Source of the DNA: an uncultured Spirochaetaceae bacterium
GTDB lineage: Bacteria; Spirochaetota; Spirochaetia; Sphaerochaetales; Sphaerochaetaceae
DNA length: 62,702 bases
Assembly (NCBI GenBank): GCA_944388955.1
Contig: CALXKJ010000012.1
Span: forward strand, 1 to 62,702
Direction of reading: 5' to 3'
Of the stretch, positions 40,329 to 60,192 are shown piece by piece (position 1 is the stretch's first letter; each line of letters opens with the position of its first letter). Below the pieces are notes generated by a model, which saw only the letters and a program-made list of their open reading frames with translations, searched no databases and was not told the DNA's origin. The position numbers and the translations under genes are program-made.

Positions 40329-41318
40329 ATGGCTTGTGGAATAAAAGATGTCGCAACAGCAGCCGGTGTTTCCATTGCTACCGTATCCCATGTCCTCAAT
40401 AGAACACGGAATGTATCAGATGCGACGCGCAGGAAAGTCGAGAAGGCTATGAAGGACCTGGAGTACTGTCCGAATTACCTTGCAAAGAGCCTGAAGGAGA
40501 ACAAGTCAAATGTAATAGGGCTTGTGGTGCCTGATATATCCAACTTCTTCTTTACGGAGATTGCAGGGGCTGTGGAGATGAGGCTTCGCAAGCTTGGCTA
40601 CAATCTGATTCTCTGCAATACTGATGAGAATCTTGAGCAGGAAAAACAGCAGATTGCACATCTGCAGTCTTACATGGTAAGCGGCATGATAATAGCTCCC
40701 ACAACAAGGGAGTACAATTACCGGAAGCTGTTTCATACCTATGATTATCCGGTGGTATTTATCGATAGACGTCTTAATACTCCGCAGGGCGACTGTGTAT
40801 ATGTAGATACAAAAAGTGTTTCCATGGAATCCACGGAATATCTTATAAGCAAAGGACATAAGCGCATTGCATTCATTGGAGCTCTTCCTGAGCTCAGTAC
40901 TACTGTAGACCGCTTCGGCGGCTATGCCGAGGCTCTGAAAGCGCATGGAATACCTCTTGATATGGATATCGTGGGATTCGGTGGGGCAAAGGATGATTCC
41001 GGGTATGAGATATGCAGAAAGCTGCTCTCCCACAAGGATGTCACAGCGCTGTTTGTTTCAACCAGTATGATGAGTATCGGTGCGATGCGCTATCTTGTCG
41101 AGAGCAACATCTCTATACCTGATGAGATAGCGATTATCGGCTTTGATGATTATATGTGGACAGGCATCACAAGTCCGCCTCTCTCGACTATAAAGCAACC
41201 GACGGTAGAGCTAGGAGAGAGGGCTACGGATATTCTGATGAAAAGAATAGAAGATAGGAATACGGATATAAGGAATGAGGTTCTGAAAGCCCACCTGATC
41301 ATCCGCGAATCGTGTTAG
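40329..41318 (+). CDS. LacI-family transcriptional regulator
   Basis: Represses the following sugar operon until an effector sugar binds. 329 residues. The N-terminal helix-turn-helix is IKDVATAAGVSIATVSHVLN, with the hinge helix YCPNYLAKSLKENKS. The periplasmic-binding-protein-like effector domain begins NVIGLVVPDISNFFFTEI and ends near EIAIIGFDDYMWTGITSPPL. SD AAGGAGG precedes ATG 40329. A LacI-type palindrome lies in its own promoter and a second one in the start of the next gene. Confidence 0.93.
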   Translation: MACGIKDVATAAGVSIATVSHVLNRTRNVSDATRRKVEKAMKDLEYCPNYLAKSLKENKSNVIGLVVPDISNFFFTEIAGAVEMRLRKLGYNLILCNTDENLEQEKQQIAHLQSYMVSGMIIAPTTREYNYRKLFHTYDYPVVFIDRRLNTPQGDCVYVDTKSVSMESTEYLISKGHKRIAFIGALPELSTTVDRFGGYAEALKAHGIPLDMDIVGFGGAKDDSGYEICRKLLSHKDVTALFVSTSMMSIGAMRYLVESNISIPDEIAIIGFDDYMWTGITSPPLSTIKQPTVELGERATDILMKRIEDRNTDIRNEVLKAHLIIRESC

Positions 41319-41358
41319 CAGAAGGCAGGTCTACTGCAAAAAAATAAAGGAGGAAACA

Positions 41359-42639: not shown

Positions 42640-42650
42640 TTCCAATGACA

Positions 42651-42677
42651 GGCTGCCGCACATTACCGGCGGCAGCC
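42651..42677 (+). promoter_or_regulatory. Intercistronic hairpin after the binding-protein gene
   Basis: GGCTGCCGC pairs with GCGGCAGCC around a short loop, without a T tract. Such hairpins often protect the upstream message and favour more binding protein than permease. Confidence 0.6.
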
Positions 42678-42693
42678 AATATCAGGAGGCATA

Positions 42694-43581
42694 ATGACCA
42701 AGACATTGAATAAACCATCAGACATACTGACGTTCATTCTGCCCGCATTCATAGTTTTCACTCTCATTGTGATAGTTTCCATCGCGTGGGTATTCGGTGT
42801 CAGTTTTCTTGACTGGAATGGAATGACCGGTGGAAAATTCGTAGGCTTTAATAATTACAGGCAGCTGTTTTTTGAGGACAGCAGTTATTGGGAAATCGTA
42901 GGTAATACATTCCTTTATACAATATATGAGCTTTTGTGGCAGGTTCTGGGCGGCCTTCTTGTCGCTATATTCCTTACAAGGCTAAGACATTTCAGATCGA
43001 TACTTCAGACCTTGTATTATATTCCGGTAGTCATCTCAACTGTTGCTATCTGCCAGATCTTCACGAAATTCTTCTCCGTTGTGCCGTCAGGTGTGATCAA
43101 CTCAGTCCTGAGTCTATTCAACGAGGAGTGGGCTTACCTTGAATGGCTTTCCAATCCTAATCTGTCGCTGGAAGTTGCGGCATTTGCTGAAGGATATAAA
43201 TACTTTGGTTTGTATATGGTTATCTTCTATGCTGCGCTGATATCAGTTCCACAGGAGCTGGAAGAGGCCGCAAGAATAGATGGTGCAGGCATGCTCACGC
43301 AGATAATGAAGATAAAGCTGCCATATATCAAGCCTGTTATAATCTCAAACCTCATCATCGTCCTCAATGGCTCCATGCGGTCGTTCGATGTGTCGTATCT
43401 GCTGACGAAGGGTGGGCCCGCAAATACCTCGCAGCTTCTGACACCTTATATGTACAAACAGGCATTCAACAGCCTGAAATACGGCTATGGAAGCGCTGTC
43501 GCCATTACGATAGTTATTCTCTGCATACTGCTTGGAGTCGTACTGCAGAAACTGATTATCAAAGATGATAAGGAGGAGTGA
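42694..43581 (+). CDS. ABC sugar transporter permease 1 (MalF/UgpA type)
   Basis: One of two inner-membrane subunits of the importer. 295 residues with six predicted helices. The cytoplasmic EAA loop that contacts the ATPase reads ELEEAARIDGAGMLTQIMKIKLP. SD CAGGAGG lies before ATG 42694. The next gene begins three bases after its stop. No ATPase gene is in this operon; a shared MsmK/UgpC-type ATPase from elsewhere in the genome is the usual solution. Confidence 0.92.
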   Translation: MTKTLNKPSDILTFILPAFIVFTLIVIVSIAWVFGVSFLDWNGMTGGKFVGFNNYRQLFFEDSSYWEIVGNTFLYTIYELLWQVLGGLLVAIFLTRLRHFRSILQTLYYIPVVISTVAICQIFTKFFSVVPSGVINSVLSLFNEEWAYLEWLSNPNLSLEVAAFAEGYKYFGLYMVIFYAALISVPQELEEAARIDGAGMLTQIMKIKLPYIKPVIISNLIIVLNGSMRSFDVSYLLTKGGPANTSQLLTPYMYKQAFNSLKYGYGSAVAITIVILCILLGVVLQKLIIKDDKEE

Positions 43582-43584
43582 TTT

Positions 43585-44427
43585 ATGGTTATAAGGAAAC
43601 TGAATAGAGGACTTCCTATCATAAGAATTCTCATTGCTGCGCTGCTTCTTATCATATGTATCTATCCGGTGTTCTATGTATTCATGTCCAGCGTTAAGAC
43701 AACAGAGGATTTCCAGCAGCAGAAGCCTTATGAGCTCCCTTCTGAAATCACGTTTGCCAATTACCAGAAGATAATAGAGCAGGGCAGGATCCTTACGTAT
43801 TTCAAGAACAGCATAATAATCACGCTTTTCACGGTTCTGTTCATACTTATACTGGCATCGATGGCGGGATTCGGATTGAGCAAGTTCTCATTCCGGGGAA
43901 ACAAGACTCTCAGAAATTATTTCAATCTGGGCTTGATGCTTCCGATACAGGTGTCGCTGATACCGCTTTTCTACATTTTCTCCCGCATCGACATTCTGGA
44001 TACATATCCTGCCGTCATCATCCCACAGGTTGCTTTCGGTCTTGCATTCTCTATACAGCTGTTCTACTCGTTTTATAAATTTCTTCCGAATGATGTCATA
44101 GAGTCCGGGATAATCGATGGCTGCACTCCGATGCAGGTATTCATCAAGATTGTCACACCAATGGCCCAGAACACATATCTCACCGTTGCTACGATGCAGG
44201 GAGTGTTCTGCTGGAATGAGTTCATAACGACATATACGATGACAAAATCTGTCGGGATGAAGACGGTTACGCTTGGATTGAATGACTTTGTCGGGACGAT
44301 GGGGCTTACTGACTGGGGCGCTACATTCGCAATGATCATACTTACTATACTGCCGACGCTGATCCTGTACTTCTTTACAAACAAGCATATGGTTTCCGGC
44401 ATAGCGGCAGGTTCTGTCAAAGGCTGA
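43585..44427 (+). CDS. ABC sugar transporter permease 2 (MalG/UgpE type)
   Basis: Second inner-membrane subunit. 280 residues with six predicted helices. The EAA loop is NDVIESGIIDGCTPMQVFIK, with the first residues less canonical than in permease 1 (ESGIIDGC instead of EAARIDGA). N-terminal membrane helix IIRILIAALLLIICIYPVFY. The gene is separated from permease 1 by three bases and from the GH32-like gene by 18. Confidence 0.92.
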   Translation: MVIRKLNRGLPIIRILIAALLLIICIYPVFYVFMSSVKTTEDFQQQKPYELPSEITFANYQKIIEQGRILTYFKNSIIITLFTVLFILILASMAGFGLSKFSFRGNKTLRNYFNLGLMLPIQVSLIPLFYIFSRIDILDTYPAVIIPQVAFGLAFSIQLFYSFYKFLPNDVIESGIIDGCTPMQVFIKIVTPMAQNTYLTVATMQGVFCWNEFITTYTMTKSVGMKTVTLGLNDFVGTMGLTDWGATFAMIILTILPTLILYFFTNKHMVSGIAAGSVKG

Positions 44428-44445
44428 GCAAATAGGAGGAAAGAA

Positions 44446-45840
44446 ATGCACAAGCTTTATTATCAGCCAGAAGGGTTCTGGTTCGGAGACTGCATGCCTT
44501 TCGGCAAGGGCGATGAGTTCTATCTTTTCCATCAGAGGGACAACAGGAATCCAGGTCCATTTGGAGAGCCTTTTGGATGGTGCCTGGCTACCACAAAGGA
44601 TTTTGTCCATTACATCGATAAAGGGACAGCTATCCCAAGAGGAAGTGATACCGATCAGGATCAGTTCATCTATGCTGGAAGCGTGTTCGAGGATAAAGAG
44701 CATACTTATCATGCTTTCTACACGGGATACAACAGGGAGTTCCCGAAACTTGGAAAGGCATCTCAGGTTCTGATGCATGCTACCAGCAAGGATCTTCTCC
44801 ACTGGGAGAAGACAGAGGAAGCACTCACATTCACTCCTCAGCCAGGGTATGACAAGGATGACTGGCGTGATCCGTTTGTTATCTACGAGGAAGATAAGGA
44901 CAGGTACCGCCTGATACTGGGAGCACGCAAGCTGAATGGCCAGAAGCGCATAAATGGCTGTACAGTCCAGTTCTTCTCGAAGGATCTGAAGGAATGGGAG
45001 TTCGGTGGTCAGTTCTGGGCGCCAGAGCTGTATACGATGCATGAGATGCCCGATCTGTTCCGCATCGGTGATTGGTGGTATCACATAGTCACTGAGTACA
45101 GCGATAAGAGCAAGATGATTTATCGCATGAGCCGTTCAATCGAAGGTCCATGGATTGCTCCTTACGATGATGCATTCGATGGAAGAGCCTATTATGCTGG
45201 CCGTACATTCCTGCTTAATGGAGAGAGAATAGTTTTCGGATGGGTTCCTACCAAGGTTGACTGCGATGATAAGAATCAGTTCGAGTGGGGCGGGACTTTC
45301 ATGCCTCATAAGATTATTCAGAGAGCAGATGGAACACTTGGCTGCCTTCCGGCTCCTGGTATTCTCAAGGCATTCATCAACGGACAGCAGATTCAGTCCT
45401 GCACTGTAAAAGGTGAAGGTAAACGTACTGAGAAAGTCCTTCATAGTGATACGTCGGATCTTTTTAAGTTCGAATGCGATCTCGAGTACAAAGAAGGCTC
45501 AAGGTATGCTTCCATCAATTTCTATGAAAATGAAGAGACTGGTGATGAGTATTCCTTCAAGCTTCTTTTCCAGGAGGATAGGATAGTTTTCGATGTGACA
45601 CCGAATCAGCCCTGGTTCCAGTGCATGAACATCGGGCTTGAGCGTCCATTCCGCTTTGAAAGTGGAAAGAAGTATCACATCACGCTCATCGTGGATGATA
45701 CTATAGCAACGCTGTATGTTAATGATGTAGCGCTCAATAGCCGTTTCTACAGCAAGTTCGGCACAGCACTCTCAATATCTGCCGTTGATGGTGAAGTATC
45801 TGTATCTGCAGCTTCGGTCTCTTCAGATATCCAGATGTGA
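44446..45840 (+). CDS. Atypical GH32-like glycoside hydrolase (five-bladed propeller)
   Basis: Probable cytoplasmic enzyme acting on the sugar brought in by the preceding importer; no signal peptide. 464 residues. The propeller domain has the three GH32/68 acidic positions: Asp15 in FWFGDCMPF (in place of WMNDPNG), Asp142 in DWRDPFVI, and Glu200 in HEMPDLF (in place of EC-P). The second domain, from about 330, is a beta-sandwich of GH32 type. The unusual nucleophile motif means fructosidase activity is likely but not proven; another glycosidase or a phosphorylated substrate is possible. SD AGGAGG. Confidence 0.75.
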   Translation: MHKLYYQPEGFWFGDCMPFGKGDEFYLFHQRDNRNPGPFGEPFGWCLATTKDFVHYIDKGTAIPRGSDTDQDQFIYAGSVFEDKEHTYHAFYTGYNREFPKLGKASQVLMHATSKDLLHWEKTEEALTFTPQPGYDKDDWRDPFVIYEEDKDRYRLILGARKLNGQKRINGCTVQFFSKDLKEWEFGGQFWAPELYTMHEMPDLFRIGDWWYHIVTEYSDKSKMIYRMSRSIEGPWIAPYDDAFDGRAYYAGRTFLLNGERIVFGWVPTKVDCDDKNQFEWGGTFMPHKIIQRADGTLGCLPAPGILKAFINGQQIQSCTVKGEGKRTEKVLHSDTSDLFKFECDLEYKEGSRYASINFYENEETGDEYSFKLLFQEDRIVFDVTPNQPWFQCMNIGLERPFRFESGKKYHITLIVDDTIATLYVNDVALNSRFYSKFGTALSISAVDGEVSVSAASVSSDIQM

Positions 45841-45976: not shown

Positions 45977-46684
45977 TCAATGGGTCAGCAATGCTGTTAC
46001 TGGCAGCATGATGCAGCAGAATACTGTAAATAGGATATCTCTTGCATGAACACGAACAGGAGAGGAATCTGTTCTTCTTGCGTTTGACGAGAATCCTTTG
46101 GATTCCATTGCTATCGAAAGTTCTTCTGACCACCTTACAGATTTCACAAGAAGTGGTGCGAGAAGTGCCGGGGACACAGGGTAAACCCTGATGCCTCGAG
46201 CTCTGAAAGCAGCTTTTGTTCTCTTGTATTCAAGAGCCATGTGAGGAAATATACCCCATGCAGCTAAAAGTCCATACGCGAAGACCTGCGGCAGATGGAG
46301 CTGTTTCTGAAATGAGCGTACCATGAAGACTCTGTCTGTTGTCAGGGCAAAGAGATATCCAAGCCCCGCATACGCCAGTACGCGGCTGAGCTGCAGAATA
46401 CCATTCATCAGCTGGCTATTTCCCTGGAAGATGAATGTGTCCGAACGAACAGGCATGGCAGATTCCGCTGTGAACCTGTATCCAGTGAAAAACATGCCTG
46501 CTGCGGCAAGTACTACTGGCAAAAGGTACAGCAGGAGAGTCCGCATTCTGATTCCCGAGAGAAGCAATAGGAGCAGACTGACTAAGAATGCCGAAAGATT
46601 CCACCATGGATCTTTCAGTCCTGCAAGAAGAAGCGTAACAGCTAGCAGTGATATGAACTTACAGGCTGGATTCAGAGTCCGCAT
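45977..46684 (-). CDS. ECF/YkoC-type transmembrane protein
   Basis: T component of the thiamine-precursor transporter encoded with it. 235 residues, about five helices (FISLLAVTLLLAGLKDPWW; LLYLLPVVLAAAGMFFTG), and the coupling region AAFRARGIRVYP, the Ala-Arg-Gly motif of EcfT proteins. It ends the minus-strand operon and overlaps the 3' end of the ATPase gene by 26 bases. The YkoC label rests on the YkoE partner at 48968-49585 and the TPP riboswitch. Confidence 0.85.
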   Translation of the reverse strand: MRTLNPACKFISLLAVTLLLAGLKDPWWNLSAFLVSLLLLLLSGIRMRTLLLYLLPVVLAAAGMFFTGYRFTAESAMPVRSDTFIFQGNSQLMNGILQLSRVLAYAGLGYLFALTTDRVFMVRSFQKQLHLPQVFAYGLLAAWGIFPHMALEYKRTKAAFRARGIRVYPVSPALLAPLLVKSVRWSEELSIAMESKGFSSNARRTDSSPVRVHARDILFTVFCCIMLPVTALLTH

Positions 46685-48086
46685 AGAGTTGTCCCTCCTT
46701 TAGTGTGAGTATCTCATCGGCATAATCGGCAGCGAGCTGTCTGTCGTGTGTAGAGAATATCAGAGCGATGTTTCTCTCTCTCGCCTCCCGGCATAATGCA
46801 TCCATGATTGCCATTGTGTTCATCAGATCCTGTGCATATGTTGGCTCATCACATACAAGACAATGACAGTCGTATGCTATAAGGGCCGCTGTTCCAAGAC
46901 GTCTCTGCTGGCCTTGGCTCAGAAGATATGGTGATATATCACGGTAACGCCATAGCTTTATTGCTCGCAGTATTTCTTCGCTTTTGCTTGCGGCTTCTGG
47001 ATCCTTTCTGAGACTGGAGAGGATTTCATCCCTGACAGTTCCTCCAACGAACTGATCCTGAGGATTCTGCGTTATGAAACCAATCATTCCTGCCTCTGAG
47101 CGCTTGAGATGCTTTATATCCTTTCCATCGAGGAGAGCTTTGCCGCTGTAAGGAAAGATTCCGGAAAGCGCTCCGAAGAGCGTGCTCTTTCCGCTACCGC
47201 TTTCACCGATGATTGCATAAATCATGCCTCGGCGGAATGAAGCTGAGATACCGTGAAGAATCTCTTTCTTCCCTCTGCAGGCTTTGAGATTATGGAATTC
47301 AAGCACAATATCACTCGGGGTTGGCTGAGGAATGGAAGGAGCGTAGTGTACTCCCGGTGCTATGATTCCAAGGTCCCGAAGCTTTTCTGGGTTTGCATTC
47401 CTGACATCGATTTCTTCCGGGATGATTCTTCCATCCTTCATTATTGCCACGTTATCAGCAATACCAATCCAGTTATCAAGACGATGATCAACGGCAAGTA
47501 TTCCGACACCTTTTTCCTTGTGAAGCTTTCCAAGAGCTGCTGCGATGGAGCGTGCGGACATATCATCGATATTGGCGAACGGCTCGTCCAGAAGCACCCA
47601 CTCTGGAGAAATAGCTACTACGCATGCAAGCGCAGCTTTCTGCTTTTCGCCTCCGGAAAGACTCAAAAGCGCTCTGTTCTCAAGGTCTCTGATGCCGCAG
47701 AAGTCCAGCGAGAATCTGAGCTTCTCTTCCATCTCCTCCTGCGGTATCGCTATATTCTCAAGACAGAAGAGAATCTCATTGCGCACGGTATCCATGCAGA
47801 ATTGCAGTTCCGGATTCTGGAACATCATTCCCACAAGGCGACAACGCTCAGGGGGATTAAGCTTTGCCGGATCCTTGCCTTCTATCAGCACATGACCTGT
47901 TGTGATGATTCCCGAGTTTTCCGGATAAAGCCCAGCGGCAAGATAGAGCAGGGTTGACTTACCACAGCCTGATGCACCGGTGAGAACTGTGATAGCTCTG
48001 CGGTCTACACTCCACCCCAGCTTGTCCACTAGAGGCTTCAGATTCTCTGAGTATTTGAATGACAGGTTATCGAAGGTTATTCCCAT
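46659..48086 (-). CDS. ECF/YkoD-type ATPase, two fused ABC domains
   Basis: Energy-coupling ATPase of 475 residues. Domain one has LTGASGCGKSTLLYLA, LLSLSGGEKQKAA and WVLLDEPFANID. Domain two has IIGESGSGKSTLFGAL, LLSQGQQRRLGTA and CLVCDEPTYAQD. YkoD proteins have this fused double form. It overlaps the gene for the ThiY-like protein by one base at its start and the T gene at its end. The operon is controlled by the TPP riboswitch upstream of ykoE. Confidence 0.88.
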   Translation of the reverse strand: MGITFDNLSFKYSENLKPLVDKLGWSVDRRAITVLTGASGCGKSTLLYLAAGLYPENSGIITTGHVLIEGKDPAKLNPPERCRLVGMMFQNPELQFCMDTVRNEILFCLENIAIPQEEMEEKLRFSLDFCGIRDLENRALLSLSGGEKQKAALACVVAISPEWVLLDEPFANIDDMSARSIAAALGKLHKEKGVGILAVDHRLDNWIGIADNVAIMKDGRIIPEEIDVRNANPEKLRDLGIIAPGVHYAPSIPQPTPSDIVLEFHNLKACRGKKEILHGISASFRRGMIYAIIGESGSGKSTLFGALSGIFPYSGKALLDGKDIKHLKRSEAGMIGFITQNPQDQFVGGTVRDEILSSLRKDPEAASKSEEILRAIKLWRYRDISPYLLSQGQQRRLGTAALIAYDCHCLVCDEPTYAQDLMNTMAIMDALCREARERNIALIFSTHDRQLAADYADEILTLKEGQLYADSESSL

Positions 48087-48964
48087 CAGTCGAAGTACTC
48101 GTTTGTATATTCATTGCTACGGCGATGGGTAATGACTCCCACGGAGCACATGTAATCTGCCATTCTGTCCCAGCGTTCAGGTTTTATGCGTCCCCAGTGG
48201 CCTTCTTCATCGAGTAGTATCGGGGCAAGGTGTCTCTGACTTCTTATGAGAAGTGAATCAGTGGAGTCTTCAGGCATCATATCCTTCACTTCAAGAACAG
48301 TAGTTTCCGGCTCTGCTGCAACCGCTTGGTATGCACGGTCAAGTACATTGAGGAATCTTCTCACTGCATCTGATTTATCTCTAAGTGTTGATGCAGCTGC
48401 CGCCATTGCAGGGGCGCAGAAATCGAAGATAGGATCGACATCACCGAGATTGAAGTAATTGATTTCCTTCCCAGCTTCCAGAAGAACCTGATTCTCCCAG
48501 TTCTCATAGACCCATGTTGCATCTGCGACACTTCCAAGTGTTGCCACGATATCACCAACGTCCATGTTCAGGAGTTTTACCTTTGAATAGTCGCCTCCAT
48601 CTTTCTCTACAATCCTGCCGATTGCCTTATGAAACCATGCTGGAGACCAGTGCGTGAGACGCTTTCCTTCGAGTTCCCTTGGCCTTGTGATTCCTGCTTC
48701 TTTAAGCGATACGATACCTGAATCGCATTTCTGCGTCATAACGGCAACGCATGTCATCTCTTCTCCTCGCTCCATACAGTCGAGCATCGAGATTTCAGGA
48801 CCGCATATGAAATCGGCATCTCCAAGGTGCATAGCCCCATGTACTTTCCCGGAAATCTCTACATCGAGATCCGCTTCTTTGAACCATCCCCGCTTCTCGG
48901 CAAGAAGGTAGCCTGTGTGATTCGTATTTGGGAACCAGTCAAGAACAACTTTCAGCTTATCCAT
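48086..48964 (-). CDS. ThiY/NMT1-family pyrimidine-binding protein without a signal peptide
   Basis: 292 residues with the NMT1/THI5-like fold: KVVLDWFPNTNHTGYLLAEKRGWF at the N-terminus, GPEISMLDCMERGEEM, and YTNEYFD at the C-terminus. ThiY proteins bind thiamine pyrimidine precursors for an importer, which fits the operon. However, AGGAGG lies directly before this ATG and the mature-type sequence begins at residue 3, so no export signal is encoded. It also lacks the His/Lys pair and Cys-rich motif of THI5 HMP-P synthase. A cytoplasmic binding or catalytic role is therefore open. Confidence 0.72.
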   Translation of the reverse strand: MDKLKVVLDWFPNTNHTGYLLAEKRGWFKEADLDVEISGKVHGAMHLGDADFICGPEISMLDCMERGEEMTCVAVMTQKCDSGIVSLKEAGITRPRELEGKRLTHWSPAWFHKAIGRIVEKDGGDYSKVKLLNMDVGDIVATLGSVADATWVYENWENQVLLEAGKEINYFNLGDVDPIFDFCAPAMAAAASTLRDKSDAVRRFLNVLDRAYQAVAAEPETTVLEVKDMMPEDSTDSLLIRSQRHLAPILLDEEGHWGRIKPERWDRMADYMCSVGVITHRRSNEYTNEYFD

Positions 48965-48967
48965 TTC

Positions 48968-49585
48968 CTATTCCTCCTCATCATATATTTTCCCGATATC
49001 AGCAGATGCACCGATAGCGTAATTTCTCACTACACCAGTCTTCGCCAGTGCGTCGCCAGCAAGTCGGCAGACAATACCGGAGAAGATGGCTGCGCTGATG
49101 AATCTGACTGTGAGCTGTCCGATAAGGAGAACAGGAGAGAGTGTGATGTAGTTCAGGTAGTAGAGCTCGTAGCAGAAGATGAGAAAAGCCGATGCGATAC
49201 CAGCGAGGATCATCGATACTGTATCCCATTTCCTGTAACGGAATGCCGCAAAAACAGCTTCTGCTCCAAGTCCCTGTATAAATCCGGTAAGTACTACGGT
49301 AAGACCTCCGGAATTTCCCATCAGCAGCTCGATTGCAGAAGCGAGCATCTCGGTTATCAGGGCAACACCTGGTTTCCTGATTATATATGCCGCGAGAGTT
49401 GCTGCCATGAACCACACGCCATAGATAATCTCGAAGCCGAAGTTAGACAGTCCGAATGGGGTCAGCGCGGTCGAAAGCGCAAGGCCACCCTGAAATACAG
49501 CCATGTAAACGGCTGCGAATACAACGCCGAGAATTGCCATCATGATGACATCCTTCAGCTTCCACGTTTCCAATTTCCTATCCAT
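48968..49585 (-). CDS. ykoE: YkoE-type ECF S component for a thiamine precursor
   Basis: Membrane substrate-capture protein, probably for hydroxymethylpyrimidine or a related precursor. 205 residues, about six helices. Landmarks are LKDVIMMAILGVVFAAVY, FGLSNFGFEIIYGVWFMAAT and TGFIQGLGAEAVFAAFRYR, which match YkoE. The SD CAGGAGG precedes ATG 49585. It is the first gene after a TPP riboswitch and terminator, so it is switched off when thiamine pyrophosphate is plentiful. Confidence 0.88.
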   Translation of the reverse strand: MDRKLETWKLKDVIMMAILGVVFAAVYMAVFQGGLALSTALTPFGLSNFGFEIIYGVWFMAATLAAYIIRKPGVALITEMLASAIELLMGNSGGLTVVLTGFIQGLGAEAVFAAFRYRKWDTVSMILAGIASAFLIFCYELYYLNYITLSPVLLIGQLTVRFISAAIFSGIVCRLAGDALAKTGVVRNYAIGASADIGKIYDEEE

Positions 49586-49892: not shown

Positions 49893-50510
49893 ATGAGCGG
49901 GAAATATATAAAAGATCAGGCATATGACGAAATAAGAGAGAAGATAATCAACTGTGAATACGAGCCAGGGGAGGCTTTGAGTGAGCTTGAGCTTACCAAG
50001 GAGCTTGGATTCGGAAGGACGCCATTGCACAACGCATTCATCCGGCTGGCAGCTGAAGGCCTTGTAACCCTTATTCCGAAGAAAGGTGTGATAGTAAATG
50101 GTATTTCACTTAATGACCAGCTGGAAATATTTGATGTCAGGCTGATGATTGAGCCAGAGCTTATCCGTAAATATGGTGACTCAATCGAGCTCTCATATCT
50201 CGATGATTATACAGCACGCTGTCAGAGCGCTCTTGACACGAAGAGCCGTATTGCATTGGACGAGGAGCTTCATAGCAAGCTTCGTGAAGTGTGCAGAAAT
50301 CATTACATCAGAAATATATTGCATGATCTTGAGGGTGTTAGTCACAGGAATAGAATCTATCATTCTAATGAAACCCGTATAGCAGAAAGTATCAAAGAGC
50401 ATATAGTCATTGTCCAGCATCTCATGTGCCGGGATTTTGAAAAAGCGGCGGAGGCCATGCGTGTCCATCTTACGAATGCGCGTGAGTTCGCTATGAAGAA
50501 ATATCTATGA
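49893..50510 (+). CDS. GntR-family regulator, FadR/FCD subfamily
   Basis: Transcription factor of 205 residues. The winged helix is AYDEIREKIINCEYEPGEAL through GFGRTPLHNAFIRLAAEGLV, followed by an FCD-type all-helical effector domain with metal-site-like residues (FDVRLMIEPELIRKY; ELHSKLREV; KEHIVIVQHL). No clear SD precedes ATG 49893. GCATGC palindromes in front of the next operon and of the gene at 54211 are its likely targets. Its own upstream region lacks that motif. Confidence 0.9.
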   Translation: MSGKYIKDQAYDEIREKIINCEYEPGEALSELELTKELGFGRTPLHNAFIRLAAEGLVTLIPKKGVIVNGISLNDQLEIFDVRLMIEPELIRKYGDSIELSYLDDYTARCQSALDTKSRIALDEELHSKLREVCRNHYIRNILHDLEGVSHRNRIYHSNETRIAESIKEHIVIVQHLMCRDFEKAAEAMRVHLTNAREFAMKKYL

Positions 50511-50526: not shown

Positions 50527-50554
50527 TTGACAAATGCCTTAAGCATGTTAGTCT
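50527..50554 (+). promoter_or_regulatory. Promoter of the amidohydrolase operon
   Basis: TTGACA (50527-50532), 16-base spacer, TAGTCT (50549-50554). The same boxes and spacing occur at 54122-54149. Confidence 0.65.
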
Positions 50555-50568
50555 ACTATTAACAATAG

Positions 50569-50610
50569 ATGCATGCAACAATTATTAAATTTTATAATAC
50601 TTGCATGCAT
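50569..50610. promoter_or_regulatory. GntR/FadR-type operator pair
   Basis: ATGCATGCAA (50569-50578) and TTGCATGCAT (50601-50610) form an inverted pair 22 bases apart, just downstream of the promoter. Each half holds GCATGC. The GntR protein encoded immediately upstream is the likely ligand. Confidence 0.7.
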
Positions 50611-50657
50611 AACAGTTGCTCAAATTTTATTTGAGATGCTATTCAGGAGGCTGGAAG

Positions 50658-51836
50658 GTGAGGGTTCTTTTAAGTAATCCATACGTATGGACAGATGACC
50701 ATTTTGAGAAAAAGGATGTTATTGTTGATGGCTGTAAGCTTGAAGTCGCTCCATTCAGACAACCCATTAAGTATGATTCGGTAAAGAAGCTTGACGGCTT
50801 CTACCTGCTGCCTGGGATTATAGATTGCCATGCCCATGTGTCGATGGTATGCGGCACACAGCATATGAAGGATTTCTTCGCTTCAAGCGAGAATGATTTG
50901 GTTGTTGATTCTGTCATAAACGCTGAGAAGATGGTACGTCATGGAATAACGACAATCAGGGATTGCGGTGGAAAGCGATTTGAGACACTGTCTGTGCGTA
51001 ACTATATAAATAAAGGAAAGATTCCAGGACCGAGAATCCTTTGTTCAGGTACTCCTTTAAAAGCAATTGGTGGTCATGAGCCTGGAATGGATTATACAGG
51101 TCCAATCGAGGCGAGAGCGAAAGTCCGTGAATTTCTTTATAAAGGCGTGGATTTCATCAAGGTCATGGTCACCGGAGGTCTTGGCAAGGCAGGAGAGAAG
51201 CCAGGATGCGTCGAGATTACGCAGGATGAGCTGAATGCAATCACCGAAGAAGCAACTCGTCATGGCAGACGTGTGGCATGCCATTGCCATAGCAAGGAGG
51301 GGATGCAGATGATTATCAACGCAGGTGCAACCTCCATAGAGCATTCTACATTTCTCGATAAGGAAATCGATGAACAGCTCATTGAGAAAGGTATTTATAT
51401 CGTTCCTACATTCGAGCCATATATGAATTATGCACTATATGGTGAGCAGAATAATCAGCTTATGGACACTGTTCTGGCAGCACGAGCTATCGTAAGCGAG
51501 AAGAAAACACGTTTCCATGAAGCATATGAGATGGGTGTGAAGATAGCCTTTGGCCGCGATAGCGGAGGATTCCTGATGGACCAGGGGAAGTTTGCTGGTG
51601 AAATGCTTTATATGGAAGATGCCGGCATGAGCAGGGCGGATATAATAAACAGCGCAACGCGTAATGCTGCCGAGCTATGTGGACTGGCTGATATCACAGG
51701 AACAATTGAGACAGGAAAAGAGGCAGATCTTGTTATTCTGAAAGACAATCCTCTCGATAACCTGATGGCATTTGAGAATTCGCTTTCAGGTGTATTTGCC
51801 AGAGGTAAATACCTCGTCCCAGAACAAGAGATGTAA
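50658..51836 (+). CDS. Amidohydrolase (prolidase / imidazolonepropionase-like metal hydrolase)
   Basis: 392-residue metal-dependent hydrolase of the amidohydrolase superfamily. It shows GIIDCHAHVSMV (HxH), FIKVMVTGGLGKAG (bridging Lys), VACHCHSKEGM and TSIEHSTFLD (two further His), and GRDSGGF (Asp). GTG 50658 is chosen because AGGAGG lies seven bases before it; an earlier in-frame ATG at 50616 overlaps the promoter region. The substrate is unknown; an amide or cyclic amino-acid derivative would suit the CyuA-like gene in the operon. Confidence 0.85.
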   Translation: MRVLLSNPYVWTDDHFEKKDVIVDGCKLEVAPFRQPIKYDSVKKLDGFYLLPGIIDCHAHVSMVCGTQHMKDFFASSENDLVVDSVINAEKMVRHGITTIRDCGGKRFETLSVRNYINKGKIPGPRILCSGTPLKAIGGHEPGMDYTGPIEARAKVREFLYKGVDFIKVMVTGGLGKAGEKPGCVEITQDELNAITEEATRHGRRVACHCHSKEGMQMIINAGATSIEHSTFLDKEIDEQLIEKGIYIVPTFEPYMNYALYGEQNNQLMDTVLAARAIVSEKKTRFHEAYEMGVKIAFGRDSGGFLMDQGKFAGEMLYMEDAGMSRADIINSATRNAAELCGLADITGTIETGKEADLVILKDNPLDNLMAFENSLSGVFARGKYLVPEQEM

Positions 51837-51853
51837 TCTGATAGGAGATCGCA

Positions 51854-52843
51854 ATGACAAAAATAGAGAGAATACGCGCTGTCCTGAATAGGGCATCTGT
51901 CGATTATGTCCCGACTGGTTTCTGGATTCATTTCACTGAAGATTGCTTTTTTGGTGATGCGGCAGTGAATGCTCATCTTGAATTCTTCGATAAGACAGAG
52001 TCTGACCTCTGCAAGGTCATGACTGAATGGACGTATCCATGTGATGGGAGCATAAAAGCCGCTTCTGACTGGAAATTGATAAAATCTTATAAACGAGATG
52101 CTTCATTTATCCAGAATCAGGCAAATCTCATAAGCTCTGTCGCTGAGAAATGCAATGACTCTCCGATAGTTGCGACACTTCATGGTGTTGTTGCTTCCGC
52201 CTCTCACGCTTTGCTTGGAATTCCCCGTTATGATTCGATTGGAAGATATGCGCAGCTGTATCATCTCCGTACGGATAGGCAATCAGTTTATGAAGGCTAT
52301 AGAAGGATTGCCGATACTCTGAAGAACATGGCTCGCGAATTTGTCAAAGCTGGCGCCATCGGTATATATTATGCAGCCCTCGGTGGTGAGGCGGATGGCT
52401 TTACTGATGAGGAGCATGCTGAATATATCGCTCCGCTTGATAAGGAGATTATACATGCCGCATACGATGCTGGAGCGGAATTCGTCATTCTCCATATGTG
52501 CAAGCCAAAAGTAAGGCTTGAGAGATTCCTTGGCTATGATGCTGATATTGTGAACTGGGGTGTCCGTGAAAGCGGTATTCCTTTATCCAAAGGAAGAGAG
52601 CTTTTCCCTGATAAGATTCTTCTTGGTGGGCTTGATCATAGGGAAGGTGCTCTTATTTCAGGCGATATCTATGAATTGGAAAAGGGCATCTCCTCAATTT
52701 TTGCAGAGGTAGGAACTGATGGGCTTATTCTTGGCAGTGATTGCACCCTGCCTACCGGTATACCATATTCAAACATCAGGGCAGTGTCTGAGATTTCAAA
52801 AAGGCTTTCAGACTGTACTTTGACGAGGTGTGTGAATGTCTGA
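51854..52843 (+). CDS. Uroporphyrinogen decarboxylase-like (URO-D superfamily) protein
   Basis: 329-residue TIM-barrel protein. The start MTKIERIRAVLNRASVDYVPTGF and the end LILGSDCTLPTGIPYSNIRA are typical of the URO-D family branch used in cobamide- or methyl-transfer systems and in unassigned catabolic operons. No other haem genes are near, so haem synthesis is unlikely. SD AGGAG precedes ATG 51854. It overlaps the next gene by eight bases. Function in this pathway is unknown. Confidence 0.75.
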   Translation: MTKIERIRAVLNRASVDYVPTGFWIHFTEDCFFGDAAVNAHLEFFDKTESDLCKVMTEWTYPCDGSIKAASDWKLIKSYKRDASFIQNQANLISSVAEKCNDSPIVATLHGVVASASHALLGIPRYDSIGRYAQLYHLRTDRQSVYEGYRRIADTLKNMAREFVKAGAIGIYYAALGGEADGFTDEEHAEYIAPLDKEIIHAAYDAGAEFVILHMCKPKVRLERFLGYDADIVNWGVRESGIPLSKGRELFPDKILLGGLDHREGALISGDIYELEKGISSIFAEVGTDGLILGSDCTLPTGIPYSNIRAVSEISKRLSDCTLTRCVNV

Positions 52844-54104
52844 TTCATTCACAGAAATCCGAAGAATTCTCAAAAGCGAGCTTATCACCGCAACAGGCTG
52901 TACTGAGCCGATTGCCTTGGCGTATGGAGCCTCATGCTGTCGTAAGCTTCTTGGTACAATGCCTGACAGAATCGATGTGGAGTGCAGCGGCAATATAATC
53001 AAGAATGCAAAGAGCGTTACCGTTCCGAATTGCAATGGGCTGAAAGGTATCGATACAGCAGTTGCGATAGGCACTGTCTCGGGAGATGCCAATGCCGGTC
53101 TTGAACTCCTGAAAAATATAACCAGTAACGACATAGCATCAGCAATTGAATATCTGCAATCGCACAGCATAGTGATTTCTCTGCTGGAATCAGACTCAAA
53201 ACTGCATTTCGTGATACGGATGCGTGCTGGAATACACCACTCTCTGATTGAAATCAAAGATGTTCACACAAGGATTGTGAGAGCGGAAAGAGATGGCAAG
53301 TCAATTGTCTCTGAAACTGATTTCATCAGTCATGATGATAGCATCTCGGATTTCATGAAAACCATTTCAGTCGCTTCGATAATAGAGTATGCGGAACAGG
53401 AGGATGCTGAATTTCTTTCTTCTGCTTTTTCAACCCAGATAAAAGATAACTGGGATATCGCAACTGAGGGACTGCGGAATAACTGGGGTACAGGTATTGG
53501 TGGATTGATTGAGCAGTATCATCTTGGTGGTGCATTCAGCGATATTGAGGCATTGGCTGCAGCTGCATCCGATGCGAGAATGAGTGGCTGTCCTATGCCT
53601 GTTGTCATAAACTGCGGAAGCGGGAATCAGGGATTGACTGTCTCTGTGCCGGTGGTGGCGTATGCCCGGAAGAACAGTATCCCTGAAGACAAGTTGCTGC
53701 GTGCTCTTGCTATAAGCAATCTGCTTGCGTTGTATCAGAAGGCTTCTATAGGACGTCTTTCAGCTTTCTGCGGTGCTGTAACGGCTGCAACAGGAGCTGG
53801 AGCAGCTATCACGTGGCTAGCTGATGGCTCTTTGCGGCAGATTGAGGATACTGTAGTCAACACGCTTGCTATCGTTTCCGGCATTATCTGTGATGGGGCA
53901 AAGCCATCATGCGCTGGTAAGATTGCTATATGCGTGAATGCCGCTCTGATTGCTCATTCAATGGCTATGTGCAATTCTTTATTCTCATCCGGTGATGGTA
54001 TTGTCAAAAAGAATGCAGATGAAACAATCAGCGGGGTAGGAATGATAGCTAGTCAGGGGATGAAAGCAACTGATGATGTAATTCTCAGTGTCATGCTTGC
54101 CTGA
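52836..54104 (+). CDS. CyuA/UPF0597-type L-cysteine desulfidase or L-serine dehydratase-like protein
   Basis: 422-residue Fe-S enzyme homologue. Conserved cysteines appear in TATGCTEPIALAYG, in RLSAFCGAVTAATGAGAA and in GIICDGAKPSCAGKIA, the set that would hold a [4Fe-4S] cluster. NCGSGNQGLTVSVPVVAYA is a family hallmark. E. coli CyuA (YhaM) degrades L-cysteine to pyruvate, ammonia and sulfide. Whether this one uses cysteine, serine or another amino acid released by the amidohydrolase cannot be told. Last gene of the operon. Confidence 0.8.
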   Translation: MSDSFTEIRRILKSELITATGCTEPIALAYGASCCRKLLGTMPDRIDVECSGNIIKNAKSVTVPNCNGLKGIDTAVAIGTVSGDANAGLELLKNITSNDIASAIEYLQSHSIVISLLESDSKLHFVIRMRAGIHHSLIEIKDVHTRIVRAERDGKSIVSETDFISHDDSISDFMKTISVASIIEYAEQEDAEFLSSAFSTQIKDNWDIATEGLRNNWGTGIGGLIEQYHLGGAFSDIEALAAAASDARMSGCPMPVVINCGSGNQGLTVSVPVVAYARKNSIPEDKLLRALAISNLLALYQKASIGRLSAFCGAVTAATGAGAAITWLADGSLRQIEDTVVNTLAIVSGIICDGAKPSCAGKIAICVNAALIAHSMAMCNSLFSSGDGIVKKNADETISGVGMIASQGMKATDDVILSVMLA

Positions 54105-54121
54105 AGAGATTATGAATTTTG

Positions 54122-54149
54122 TTGACAACGTCTGAAAGCGTGGTAGTCT
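54122..54149 (+). promoter_or_regulatory. Promoter of the orphan binding-protein gene
   Basis: TTGACA (54122-54127), 16-base spacer, TAGTCT (54144-54149), identical in form to 50527-50554. Confidence 0.68.
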
Positions 54150-54157
54150 TAACATAT

Positions 54158-54200
54158 GTTGCATGCAACAAGTTTTAATTAAAACAAAAGATGCATGCAT
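54158..54200. promoter_or_regulatory. GntR/FadR-type operators
   Basis: GTTGCATGCAAC (54158-54169) is a perfect 12-base palindrome. ATGCATGCAT (54191-54200) is a second one directly before the SD. Same GCATGC core as 50569-50610. Confidence 0.7.
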
Positions 54201-54210
54201 AGGAGGTCTT

Positions 54211-55503
54211 GTGAAGCGTTTTACTCTTGTTATCTGCATGGCTCTGATTGTTTCTATGCTGTGTTTTGCTGGTGGTAATTCAGACAAGAAGGCAACAGCT
54301 GTTGCTGAGAGTTCTGAAGGGAAAACAGTTATCAATATCTACTGGTGGGGTAATCAGGTGAGAAATGACATCACCCAGAAGGCGATTAATCTCTACATGT
54401 CAGAGCACCCTGATATTGAAATCCGCTCCGAGTTCGCAGATTGGTCAGGATACTGGGATAGACTCAGCGCTACGGCAGCTGGCGGCAATATGCCTGATAT
54501 CGTCCAGATGGATTACAGCTATCTCAACCAGTATCAGCAGAACGGTCTTCTTGCGGATCTCAATCCTTACTTTGAAGATGGGACTATCGATATTTCCAAG
54601 ATACCTTCATCTGTAATCGAGTCTGGCTCTGTAGATGGACATTGCTATGCGCTTTCCCTTGGAAGCAATGCGCCTGTCATGATTTATGACCCAGCAATCA
54701 CAGAAGCCGCTGGCGTTGAAATTCCTGATCAGCTTACAGTTGAGGAGCTTTATGAGATCAGCAACACGATATATGAGAAAACAGGTGTGTCAACATATTT
54801 CCACGATGGAATAAACATGATGGCTATTGTCTGCCGTTCATATGGCTCTCACATATTCGATGAACTTGCAGCTGGTGATACAACAGGCTCACTTAAGCAT
54901 TGGAATTACGTAAAATGGTTCGCGGATGCTCCATCAGCTATTTCTCCAGAGCTTATTGCCGAGAAGAATCCTGATGTCGTCGAGACAAAGCCTATAACAG
55001 ATGGAACAACATGGAATGATTTCTCATTCTCGAATCAGTTCATCGCTGTGAGCAATGCAGCAGGCAGAAAACTTGAGATGACAATGTACCCAGTCGCAGA
55101 GGATGCCGTCAATCAGCCGATGTATCTTAAGCCTTCACAGTTCTTCTCAATCTCTTCTCAGAGCGATTGCAAGGAAGAAGCTGCAGCATTCCTGGATTGG
55201 TTTACAAACAGCGTGGAATGCAATGAAATCCTCATGGCCGAGCGTGGTATACCGGTAAATACAGAAGTCGCAGCCGCGATAAAGAATCTTGTCGATGAGA
55301 ATAATCAGGCAATTTTCGAGTATGTAGATAAAGTCGGTGCCATAGCAACTCCGATAGACGCTCCGGATCCAGCCGGTAAAGGTGAGATCGAAGCTATTGG
55401 AAAGACAACAGCTGAGGAGCTTAGACATGGCTATATGACTGTAGAGGAAGCAACTGAAGACTTCGTTTCAAGAGCTCAATCTATAATCGCTTCCATGCAG
55501 TAA
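54211..55503 (+). CDS. ABC transporter substrate-binding protein, family 1 (orphan)
   Basis: 430-residue periplasmic binding protein of the sugar-binding family 1. The signal peptide KRFTLVICMALIVSMLCFAGG is cut in front of GG with no proper lipobox. The mature part opens VINIYWWGNQVRNDITQKAI; GGNMPDIVQMDYSYLNQY is typical. GTG 54211 is chosen because TAGGAGG precedes it; the ATG at 54163 lies inside the operator. No permease follows: the next gene is convergent. Its regulation together with the amidohydrolase operon suggests it imports that pathway's substrate. Confidence 0.87.
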   Translation: MKRFTLVICMALIVSMLCFAGGNSDKKATAVAESSEGKTVINIYWWGNQVRNDITQKAINLYMSEHPDIEIRSEFADWSGYWDRLSATAAGGNMPDIVQMDYSYLNQYQQNGLLADLNPYFEDGTIDISKIPSSVIESGSVDGHCYALSLGSNAPVMIYDPAITEAAGVEIPDQLTVEELYEISNTIYEKTGVSTYFHDGINMMAIVCRSYGSHIFDELAAGDTTGSLKHWNYVKWFADAPSAISPELIAEKNPDVVETKPITDGTTWNDFSFSNQFIAVSNAAGRKLEMTMYPVAEDAVNQPMYLKPSQFFSISSQSDCKEEAAAFLDWFTNSVECNEILMAERGIPVNTEVAAAIKNLVDENNQAIFEYVDKVGAIATPIDAPDPAGKGEIEAIGKTTAEELRHGYMTVEEATEDFVSRAQSIIASMQ

Positions 55504-57522: not shown

Positions 57523-58695
57523 ATGGAAAGGTATGTAAAGCGCATCATAGATATTCAGTCCAAACTCAAAAACAAATCACTTTTTCTTTCCGGTCCAAGG
57601 CAGACGGGGAAAAGCTCTTTGATAGCAAATCAGATCCAGGATGACGTGAAGCTTTCATGGTCACTTCTCAATGCTAGGATAAGAAGAAGGTGTCAGGCGG
57701 ATCCTGGAGTGCTGCGCGATGAGATTGAGACAAGAGGAATCCAAGATGGGCTTGTAATCATCGACGAGATCCAGAAAGTTCCAGAGCTTCTTGACGAGGT
57801 TCATCTTCTGATTGAGGAGACAGATATCAGATTCCTTCTGACAGGCTCAAGCGCAAGAAGGCTCAAGGAACAGGGAGTGAATCTTCTGGGAGGTCGAGCT
57901 GGAAAGATGAACCTCCATCCATTCGTATGGCCGGAAATCAAAGAGCTCAATCCTACTCTGGACAGAATCCTAAAATACGGGATGCTTCCATCCGTATTCT
58001 TGTCAGATACTCCTGATGATGTTCTTGATGATTACATCAATGTCTACCTTCAGGACGAGATAGCGGGAGAAGGCCTCGTAAGACAGCTTCCTAAGTTCGA
58101 ACGTTTTCTTGAAGTAGCAGCCCTTACCAACGCCGAGGAGATCAACTACTCCAACATTGCAAGTGATGTGATGATGAGCAGAGGATCCATAACCCAATGG
58201 TACGGAATCCTATATGACACCATGATTGGCTTTGCAGTTCCTCCTTATACGAAGACGAAGAAAAGAAAGGCTGTTGAAACTGAGCGCTTCTACTACTTCG
58301 ATGTAGGCCTTGTCCGCTTTCTTCTCGGTCTTAGGGATATTGTCGATACACAGACTGAATACGGAAAGCTGTTTGAGACATACATTGCTGAAGAGCTATC
58401 AGCATACCTCGATTATAACAAGCGTAAAGAGAAACTGTCGTACTGGAGAACCCGTCAGTCATCATTCGAAGTGGACTTTGTAATCGGTGATGATGTTGCC
58501 ATTGAGACCAAGACGACGAAGCTTGTGAATGAGAATAAGGATCTCCGGGGACTCAGGGCATTGAAGGAAGAAGGGATATTCAAGAAGTACATCGTAGTTT
58601 CCAGGGACAGCATCTCCAGGACAACTGATGATGGAATCATGCTTCTTCCCTGGAACCTTTTCCTCACCTGGCTCTGGGACGGAAGGATACTCTGA
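57523..58695 (+). CDS. AAA+ ATPase with DUF4143 domain, tandem copy 1
   Basis: 390 residues. The ATPase has LSGPRQTGKSSLI, GLVIIDEIQKVPELLDEVH and FLLTGSSARRLKEQGVNLLGGRAG. The C-terminal PD-(D/E)XK-like domain has FEVDFVIGDDVAIETKT, with Asp and ExK preserved. A helix-turn-helix-like stretch (NIASDVMMSRGSITQWYGIL) lies between them. The family is common and often multi-copy in gut bacteria and spirochaetes, and its function is not established. Followed by a 125-base element shared with copy 2. Confidence 0.87.
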   Translation: MERYVKRIIDIQSKLKNKSLFLSGPRQTGKSSLIANQIQDDVKLSWSLLNARIRRRCQADPGVLRDEIETRGIQDGLVIIDEIQKVPELLDEVHLLIEETDIRFLLTGSSARRLKEQGVNLLGGRAGKMNLHPFVWPEIKELNPTLDRILKYGMLPSVFLSDTPDDVLDDYINVYLQDEIAGEGLVRQLPKFERFLEVAALTNAEEINYSNIASDVMMSRGSITQWYGILYDTMIGFAVPPYTKTKKRKAVETERFYYFDVGLVRFLLGLRDIVDTQTEYGKLFETYIAEELSAYLDYNKRKEKLSYWRTRQSSFEVDFVIGDDVAIETKTTKLVNENKDLRGLRALKEEGIFKKYIVVSRDSISRTTDDGIMLLPWNLFLTWLWDGRIL

Positions 58696-58720
58696 TTATT
58701 GATTGCAAAAAGGAACCCTC

Positions 58721-58851
58721 GAGTAATCTTGACCATGCGAATCAACTCCGTGATACAAACACGGAGGCTGTATTGCAACAGTTGACGGCGAGTACATTTC
58801 ATTTTGTTCAGCCGTCTTTAATGCCGATTTATCTATGTATCTATGGATGTA
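58721..58851. repeat. Repeat element downstream of DUF4143 copy 1
   Basis: Matches 60221-60342 at many positions: a stem CCGTG/CACGG around a short loop, then TGT(A/G)TTGCAA, and an ending (C/A)(C/G)ATTTATCTATG. It may be a terminator copied with the gene. Confidence 0.65.
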
Positions 58852-58980
58852 CAAATTATAGAACTGCATTCTTCGTGGATCCTAAAAACACAAGGCTTGT
58901 ATTCATGCTAATCTCAGGAGTGATATCATTCATAATCCAAGGAGTTTTGATTTTAGTTGCTCTTCTCTAAATTTTTATCA
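58852..58980. other. Possible membrane-peptide remnant
   Basis: An open frame (58773-58970) ends in a hydrophobic stretch, LVFMLISGVISFIIQGVLIL. There is no SD and it starts inside the repeat. It could be the tail of a lost membrane protein; not called as a gene. Confidence 0.3.
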
Positions 58981-59020
58981 AATTCCTAGTCTTACTCGGA
59001 ATTTTTAGATATAATTCCGA
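58981..59020 (+). promoter_or_regulatory. Promoter with inverted repeat before DUF4143 copy 2
   Basis: TATAAT (59010-59015) is overlapped by the right arm of TCGGAATT (58996-59003)/AATTCCGA (59013-59020), a perfect 8-base inverted repeat. A third AATTCC half-site lies at 58981. This looks like an operator over the -10 box. Confidence 0.55.
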
Positions 59021-59034
59021 TTGAAGGTATCAAT

Positions 59035-60192
59035 ATGGAATATATCAGACGAGCACTTGAGATTGAAGACATGCTTGAGGAAAGCTCTCTTTTCCTCTTC
59101 GGCCCGAGGATGACAGGAAAAACATCATATATCGAGAATGAGCTTCAGAAGAAAGCGATTCTCTCAATCACCTTCCTTGATGGTGACACTCTTGACGCAT
59201 TCCGTCGAAACCCTGTACTTCTGAGATCGATGCTGAATGGAAAGACTGAAGGGTTTGTCATCGTTGATGAGGTGCAGCTCTTCCCTCCTGTACTCCTCGA
59301 TATCCAGCATATTATGACCCATAGCGATATCCAGTTCCTGCTTACAGGATCCAGTGCAAGGAAACTGAAGAAGAGTGGAAACAACCTTCTTGGGGGAAGA
59401 GCTGGAATCGTTCCGATGCACCCTCTTGTATGGAAGGAGATCAGAGACAGGAATCCTGATCTTGATTCAATCTTTGCAACAGGAATGCTTCCCAAGGCAT
59501 TCATGGCCAAATCGTATCAGACTCAGCTCAGGAACTATGTCAGAGGCTATCTCGATAATGAAATCGCAGCCGAAGGAGAAAGACGTGATCTTGGAGTTTT
59601 CAGCAACTTTCTTACATTCGCCGCTTCCGAGAATACTGAGCTGATGAACTTCTCGAATGTGTCCAGAGATATAGGGATGTCCGCTGATACGATCAAGGAG
59701 TGGTATCAGATTCTTGTAGACACCTTCATCGGCTACTATCTCAGACCATACAGGAAGGGATCAAAGAGGATTCCCGTGAATACATCAAAGTTCTATTTCT
59801 TCGATGTAGGAGTTGCGAGAGCCACAGCTAGGATGCCTGTTCCGACCGAGACGATGACAGAGTATGGAAAGATGTTTGAGAATTACATCTTCATGGAGCT
59901 GAGAGCCTACATTGACTATAACATGACAGATGACGAACTTTACTTCTGGCGTACACGTGAAGGGTATGAGGTTGACTTCGTAATCGAGAACAAGGTTGCC
60001 ATTGAAGTGAAGACATCGAAGAACATCACCAATAAGGAACTTAAAGGACTGAGGGCTTTCATGGATGAGACTGCTGTGAAGGACTATATAATCGTATGCC
60101 GTGAGCTTTTCGAGCGAACGACGGATGATGGCATCAGAATATTGCCGTGGAAATCTTTCCTTGATAGGCTTTGGGGCGGAAAGATTATCTGA
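59035..60192 (+). CDS. AAA+ ATPase with DUF4143 domain, tandem copy 2
   Basis: 385 residues: FGPRMTGKTSYIENEL, EGFVIVDEVQLFPPVLLDIQ, LLTGSSARKLKKSGNNLLGGRAG, and C-terminal YEVDFVIENKVAIEVKTSKN with the nuclease-like Asp/ExK set. It is clearly a diverged duplicate of 57523-58695, with the same domain order and closely similar motifs. Its 3' end is the source relative of the fragment at 56744-56928. ATG 59035 has only a weak SD (GAAGG). Confidence 0.87.
   Translation: MEYIRRALEIEDMLEESSLFLFGPRMTGKTSYIENELQKKAILSITFLDGDTLDAFRRNPVLLRSMLNGKTEGFVIVDEVQLFPPVLLDIQHIMTHSDIQFLLTGSSARKLKKSGNNLLGGRAGIVPMHPLVWKEIRDRNPDLDSIFATGMLPKAFMAKSYQTQLRNYVRGYLDNEIAAEGERRDLGVFSNFLTFAASENTELMNFSNVSRDIGMSADTIKEWYQILVDTFIGYYLRPYRKGSKRIPVNTSKFYFFDVGVARATARMPVPTETMTEYGKMFENYIFMELRAYIDYNMTDDELYFWRTREGYEVDFVIENKVAIEVKTSKNITNKELKGLRAFMDETAVKDYIIVCRELFERTTDDGIRILPWKSFLDRLWGGKII

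Follow-up and report, generated by a model that had tools for sequence, protein, structure and literature searches.

The window analysed here, a 62,702-nucleotide stretch of DNA from an uncultured Spirochaetaceae bacterium (GenBank assembly GCA_944388955.1, contig CALXKJ010000012.1), contains a gene cluster that a sequence-only reading had described as an unassigned catabolic pathway, with an amidohydrolase, a protein resembling uroporphyrinogen decarboxylase (URO-D), a CyuA-like enzyme and a binding protein. This gene content is borne out by the open reading frames (ORFs) and the Pfam searches, which place all four genes on the + strand at 50658-55503 (Table 1). A gap of 17 bp separates the amidohydrolase gene from that for URO-D, which in turn shares 8 bp with the CyuA gene, while the binding-protein gene has a promoter-like element of its own, apart from that of the enzyme operon. 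Just outside the interval given in that reading, at 49893-50510, lies a GntR/FCD-family gene that is probably the controller of this cluster; a relative with 50% identity heads the matching operon at locus L031, and another with 47% identity occurs at L170.

Table 1. Genes and putative control elements of the cluster (positions are those of the window).
Feature	Coordinates	Strand	Evidence and remarks
GntR/FCD-family regulator	49893..50510	+	PF00392 E=2e-16, PF07729 E=4e-15
Promoter-like TTGACA-N16-TAGTCT	50527..50554	+	before enzyme operon
Putative operator pair TGCATGCA-N24-TGCATGCA	50570..50609	+	pattern search of genome
Amidohydrolase (prolidase / Zn carboxypeptidase-like)	50658..51836	+	GTG start, AGGAGG at 50645, 392 aa, PF01979 E=8e-46
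URO-D-superfamily protein, MtaA-like His-x-Cys...Cys zinc-type site	51854..52843	+	329 aa; PF01208 38.9 bits vs cut-off 23.9
CyuA-type [4Fe-4S] L-cysteine desulfidase	52836..54104	+	422 aa; PF03313 E=4e-56
Promoter-like TTGACA-N16-TAGTCT, second copy	54122..54149	+	before binding-protein gene
Putative operator pair TGCATGCA-N24-TGCATGCA, second copy	54160..54199	+	pattern search; upstream-region alignment
Extracellular solute-binding protein	54211..55503	+	PF13416 E=1e-26; no adjoining permease genes

The promoter-like sequence TTGACA-N16-TAGTCT occurs exactly twice across the window, both strands counted (50527 and 54122), and each copy is followed by TGCATGCA-N24-TGCATGCA. When the spacer was allowed to range from N20 to N28, this pair was found at two places in the organism's own 2,116,308-base genome, both in the cluster, and the reversed control pattern had no occurrence in the same genome. 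On its own, the TGCATGCA octamer is no rarity (4 copies in the window, with 2.1 expected); the weight lies with the pair and its spacing. Moreover, local alignment of the two upstream regions scored 59, and 500 shuffles reached at most 35. These results uphold the proposal that the binding protein is co-regulated with the enzymes: the same promoter and operator stand before both units, and the operators back a shared control of uptake and enzymes. The regulator combines a winged helix with an FCD domain, and with a repeated operator at both promoters it is predicted to recognise the TGCATGCA sites. The binding-protein ORF as listed begins at 54163, but the ATG there falls within the operator, and GTG 54211, behind AGGAGG at 54201, is the likely start.

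The sequence-only reading had staked itself on these genes occurring together in other genomes. The neighbourhood search was run and they do, in several genera of the same phylum and in the Lachnospiraceae-titled family of genome G100. In a sample of 100 genomes (the organism's own plus relatives), matches to the URO-D protein at E <=1e-35 were found at 43 places in 24 genomes, and a CyuA gene (E <=1e-20) lay within 10 kb of 25 of these 43, about 0.7 being expected; 21 of the 24 genomes held at least one such pair. Among CyuA proteins at least 39% identical to that of the window, 23 of 40 were paired with a URO-D gene, as against 1 of 40 below 39%, a split that indicates that one class of CyuA accompanies the URO-D protein. 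Beyond this sample, the URO-D profile matched 32 of 392 genomes of the same phylum (1e-30), 8 of 398 in the phylum of G100 (1e-50) and 29 of 299 in its family (1e-50). Outside a deep clade, 69 distinct URO-D genes were compared: 32 had CyuA within 8 kb, 27 a peptidase or amidohydrolase, and 45 one or both. A scan of named genomes for the URO-D protein returned one locus, a yield explained by the strictness of its peptide patterns.

Close relatives of the amidohydrolase (56-63% identity) were present in 3 of the 299 genomes of the G100 family, each time in a cluster that also encodes a URO-D relative (49-58% identity); a fourth match (36%, G883) came from a genome with no URO-D match at 1e-50. 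Two of these clusters, L031 and L170, share the order GntR, LivJ, amidohydrolase, LivH, LivM, LivG, LivF, URO-D. The genome of L031 (G100) has its CyuA in a second cassette (L116), where it is joined by transporters of the SDF and AbgT types, an M24 peptidase and a further URO-D gene; L116 also holds a gene resembling CoA-disulfide reductase, just at one curated cut-off and below another, which we count in favour of the pathway proposed below. The third cluster, L172 (G897), encodes on one strand a binding protein (52%), two permeases, CyuA (33%), the amidohydrolase (56%), a GntR protein named by eye from its ORF sequence, URO-D (49%) and a GH4 glycosidase, so that all five gene types, plus permeases, stand in a single cluster of this one genome from the Lachnospiraceae-titled family. 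Other cassettes keep the URO-D/CyuA core while the transporter varies. The two genes stand with sugar-type ATP-binding cassette (ABC) genes in, for example, L041, L044, L045, L119, L123 and L124, with oligopeptide ABC genes and an M20 dipeptidase in L033/L054, L034/L055, L035/L056, L058, L062 and L072, with an orphan binding protein and an M20 peptidase in L038, L039, L040, L064 and L122, and with a Liv-type (branched-chain) system in L066, in addition to the AbgT case above. The hydrolase varies as well among M20 dipeptidase, M24 peptidase and amidohydrolase. Both M20 partners tested scored above the curated cut-off for Sapep dipeptidase and far below that for Cys-Gly-3M3SH dipeptidase, and the M24 partner was PepQ-like, below its curated cut-off. 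A 525-aa cassette partner has no Pfam match, and its sequence reads as a solute-binding lipoprotein without a permease; the label 'c16mem' was rejected for it.

Residues at the predicted active sites bear on the likely chemistry of the three enzymes. Structures related to the amidohydrolase are the Xaa-Pro dipeptidase 2qs8 and the arginine carboxypeptidases 3be7 and 3mtw, with which it shares both fold family and metal-ligand pattern. Counted from TTG 50616, the ligands are H72, H74, K182, H223, H243 and D315, that is, the prolidase-like HxH, Lys, His, His, Asp arrangement of a dinuclear site; H74 was kept in 4 of 5 homologues (N in L042) and the others in all five, each residue having a presumed role in binding metal. 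The protein falls far below the cut-off of the curated family NF051886 (229 of 500 bits), and is best regarded as a candidate dipeptidase or carboxypeptidase.

For the CyuA protein, the closest solved structures are those of L-cysteine desulfidase (9he0/9fsl). The residues to which roles are assigned in PMC12647591, carried over by alignment to these structures, are the three cluster cysteines (C312, C352 and C359), the Cys/Glu dyad (C22 and E24) and the active-site R248, and all six were kept in 37 of 37 sequences. According to that paper, the dyad is unique to cysteine desulfidases and separates them from the SdaA/B serine dehydratases; its presence throughout led us to set aside a serine dehydratase identity. 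Cysteine desulfidation by this enzyme is a prediction with residue support. The protein shares family and the six key residues with CyuA of Methanococcus maripaludis and of the E. coli CyuPA system, and its predicted products are pyruvate, ammonia and H2S. In E. coli, CyuA stands with a cysteine importer (PMC9040844), whereas here its neighbours are a zinc-type URO-D-like enzyme, an amidohydrolase or peptidases, and transporters of several kinds. The same genome also has a second, unlinked CyuA gene (G000:C6:43980-45221, L117; 36% identity), which adjoins a phosphomannose-isomerase-like gene, has no URO-D gene nearby and likewise keeps the six residues.

The URO-D-superfamily protein is the sole PF01208 match in its genome. 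Over 85 aligned URO-D proteins, H214 was present in 85, C216 in 83 and C297 in 85; the last, placed by its position in the sequence rather than from a structure, we take to be the third zinc ligand. A profile-based search of the PDB gave MtaA (4ay7) as best match (E=4.8e-4), with an alignment spanning the HxC motif. A structure model built from two sequences was poor (mean predicted local distance difference test score 49.6), and a Foldseek search with it, which again put MtaA first (4ay8, E=2e-4; 16% identity) and also matched MetE weakly, lends weak support only, as the tool itself cautions. Across the URO-D superfamily, a zinc site made of His-Cys-Cys is the mark of S/Se methyltransferases, the O-enzymes having acids in place of cysteine (PMC10418091). 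The residues therefore favour a site of zinc-thiol nature and point to sulfur chemistry, not porphyrin-type decarboxylation (PMC10418091). Given this pattern and the CyuA-operon context, a haem-type decarboxylase identity was set aside, porphyrin residues not being compared. In a tree of the 85 proteins, the support values of which were not read, the window protein clustered with four sequences of the G100 family and not with those from its own genus, a placement suggestive of gene transfer across distantly related bacteria. At three further loci (L033, L057 and L067) a second URO-D gene stands near a Fer4_20/Pyr_redox_2 oxidoreductase (scanned in L033), with no CyuA in the same operon.

An S-methyltransferase of the MtaA type would be expected to have a corrinoid-protein partner, which we sought with two Pfam families. 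In the genus, PF02310 was found in 0 of 14 genomes and PF02607 in 0 of 22, these being drafts 78 to 96% complete; PF02607 had 11 matches in 8 other genomes of the same search, none of which, by coordinates, was near a URO-D match. Ordinary corrinoid methyl transfer is therefore unlikely. The protein shares with the coenzyme M methyltransferases MtaA and MtbA and with the Mlps of type 1 mlp clusters (PMC10418091) the superfamily, the His-Cys-Cys zinc-type site and sulfur-linked neighbours. Unlike in those systems, the cluster encodes no corrinoid protein and none was detected in the genus; instead, CyuA, hydrolases and uptake systems accompany the protein. A type 1 mlp cluster unites two or more Mlps with a corrinoid protein and the activase Ram, whereas the locus has one URO-D gene and no corrinoid-protein gene; Ram was not searched for. 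MetE, for its part, offers a precedent for zinc-dependent thiol methylation without a corrinoid (PMC539065), but the 329-aa protein of the window consists of one barrel and has no demonstrated folate donor.

On the basis of gene content, the shared promoter and operator, co-occurrence and metal-site residues, we tentatively propose that the cassette serves, under GntR control, to break down a small compound that contains cysteine, for instance a dipeptide or an S-substituted or otherwise thiol-masked cysteine conjugate, a reading that we hold to be a serious possibility though somewhat short of probable. We infer the substrate, the order of the steps and the URO-D reaction as follows. The binding protein, with permeases encoded elsewhere, would import the compound, and the dinuclear-metal amidohydrolase, acting as dipeptidase or carboxypeptidase, would cut its amide bond and release a substituted cysteine. 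The URO-D-like barrel may then bind the sulfur at its His-Cys-Cys zinc site, the substituent being removed or transferred without a corrinoid protein, and CyuA would bind the freed thiol on its [4Fe-4S] cluster and eliminate it to give pyruvate, ammonium and H2S. The catabolic scheme of the sequence-only reading fits this in part: uptake by the binding protein, release of an amino acid by the amidohydrolase and its deamination or desulfuration by CyuA can stand. The URO-D step, there taken as a methyl or decarboxylation step, needs correction, since the zinc-type site argues against the second, and the failure to find a corrinoid protein in the genus against the first in its ordinary form.

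Several observations weigh against this proposal. To take a substituent off a neutral thioether with no corrinoid at hand is difficult chemistry, for which no acceptor is known. Of the three closest operons, two (L031 and L170) have no adjoining CyuA, 17 of the 40 higher-identity CyuA genes have no URO-D gene within 10 kb, and for 24 of the 69 URO-D genes beyond the deep clade the surrounding 8 kb hold no CyuA and no dipeptidase, in some cases because the retrieved sequence stops short. In addition, several cassettes hold glycan genes (sulfatases, GH88, GH130, N-acetylglucosamine 2-epimerase and GH4), which a plain cysteine-peptide route leaves unexplained.

We rank as the strongest rival, though an unlikely one, that the substrates are cysteine heterocycles or adducts of cysteine with aldehydes or sugars (thiazolidines and thiazolines), in which case the zinc enzyme would bind the thiolate to help ring opening, oxidoreductases would handle the aldehyde and CyuA would take the cysteine. 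PF14196, a family named for 2-aminothiazoline-4-carboxylate (ATC) hydrolase, has 24 matches in 18 of 40 genomes; 5 of these matches are close to a URO-D gene, and two of the cassettes so linked, L048 and L132, also hold CyuA. Likewise consistent with this explanation, five cassettes contain or adjoin aldo-keto reductases and one an iron alcohol dehydrogenase, prolidase-like hydrolases could cleave proline-like rings, and sugar transporters and sugar enzymes would suit sugar adducts. However, most of the links to ATC hydrolase come from divergent URO-D clades, only 20-27% identical to the protein of the window, the organism's own genome (G000) has no PF14196 match, and the function of this family in anaerobes is not known to have been tested. 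The loci where PF14196 genes are close to URO-D genes are L129, L132, L048 and L169, the first of them also with DhaK/DhaL-like kinase genes.

The URO-D protein might instead act after CyuA, methylating or alkylating sulfide or a thiol for detoxification or to form a methylated sulfur product. The 8-bp overlap of the two genes would fit, and a His-Cys-Cys zinc site suits thiols and sulfide (PMC10418091). Yet neither a methyl donor nor a corrinoid protein is encoded close by or was found in the genus, and the way in which hydrolases and transporters change along with the cassette suggests a substrate-side role; we consider this reading quite improbable. That the protein is an ordinary corrinoid-dependent methyltransferase, served by free cobalamin or by a corrinoid protein so diverged that Pfam misses it, would accord with MtaA being its nearest solved relative and with relatives of that group working with corrinoid proteins; the corrinoid-domain searches described above, in the genus and around the URO-D matches, make it very unlikely. 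The sulfatases, GH88, GH130 and sugar-type ABC transporters of several cassettes would be accounted for if serine-bearing glycopeptides were broken down, with the CyuA-like enzyme as serine dehydratase, yet the dyad of cysteine desulfidases (PMC12647591) in all 37 sequences leaves little room for this, and we give it hardly any credence.

The genes closest to the cluster are on the opposite strand: ECF-type transporter genes before it and an EamA transporter after it. The former (45977-49585, - strand) include an ABC_cobalt/MptD-like S component and an NMT1/THI5-like protein, and a thiamine precursor is probably their cargo. Elsewhere in the window, Wadjet defence genes occupy 33422-39850, with strong Pfam matches for JetA (33422-34801) and JetD (38639-39850) and, between them, two ORFs that are candidates for JetB and JetC by position only. 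A LacI regulator, a sugar ABC transporter and a GH32 enzyme at 40329-45840 likely form a fructan or sucrose operon. Finally, a pair of ATPase genes belonging to one cluster lies in tandem at 57523-60192, and the first of them matches AAA_14/DUF4143.

Each of the protein families of the cysteine cassette is already known. In the open literature (subscription papers were outside the scope) we found no report of the URO-D/CyuA pairing, of the swapping of transporters and hydrolases around it, or of a His-Cys-Cys URO-D branch with no detected corrinoid protein. With more reserve than for the cassette as such, and aware that it is rather doubtful, we suggest that a corrinoid-free branch of MtaA-like zinc enzymes strips the S-substituents of cysteine conjugates (or opens cysteine rings) and so feeds CyuA, in a modular, transporter-swapping, H2S-forming pathway present in at least two bacterial phyla. 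If true, anaerobes, the Lachnospiraceae-titled family among them, would have a new way of making H2S from cysteine conjugates, and methyltransferase-type zinc barrels related to those of methanogens would be able to work without B12. Many functionless annotations as 'uroporphyrinogen decarboxylase family' would then gain a defined target, namely sulfur compounds.

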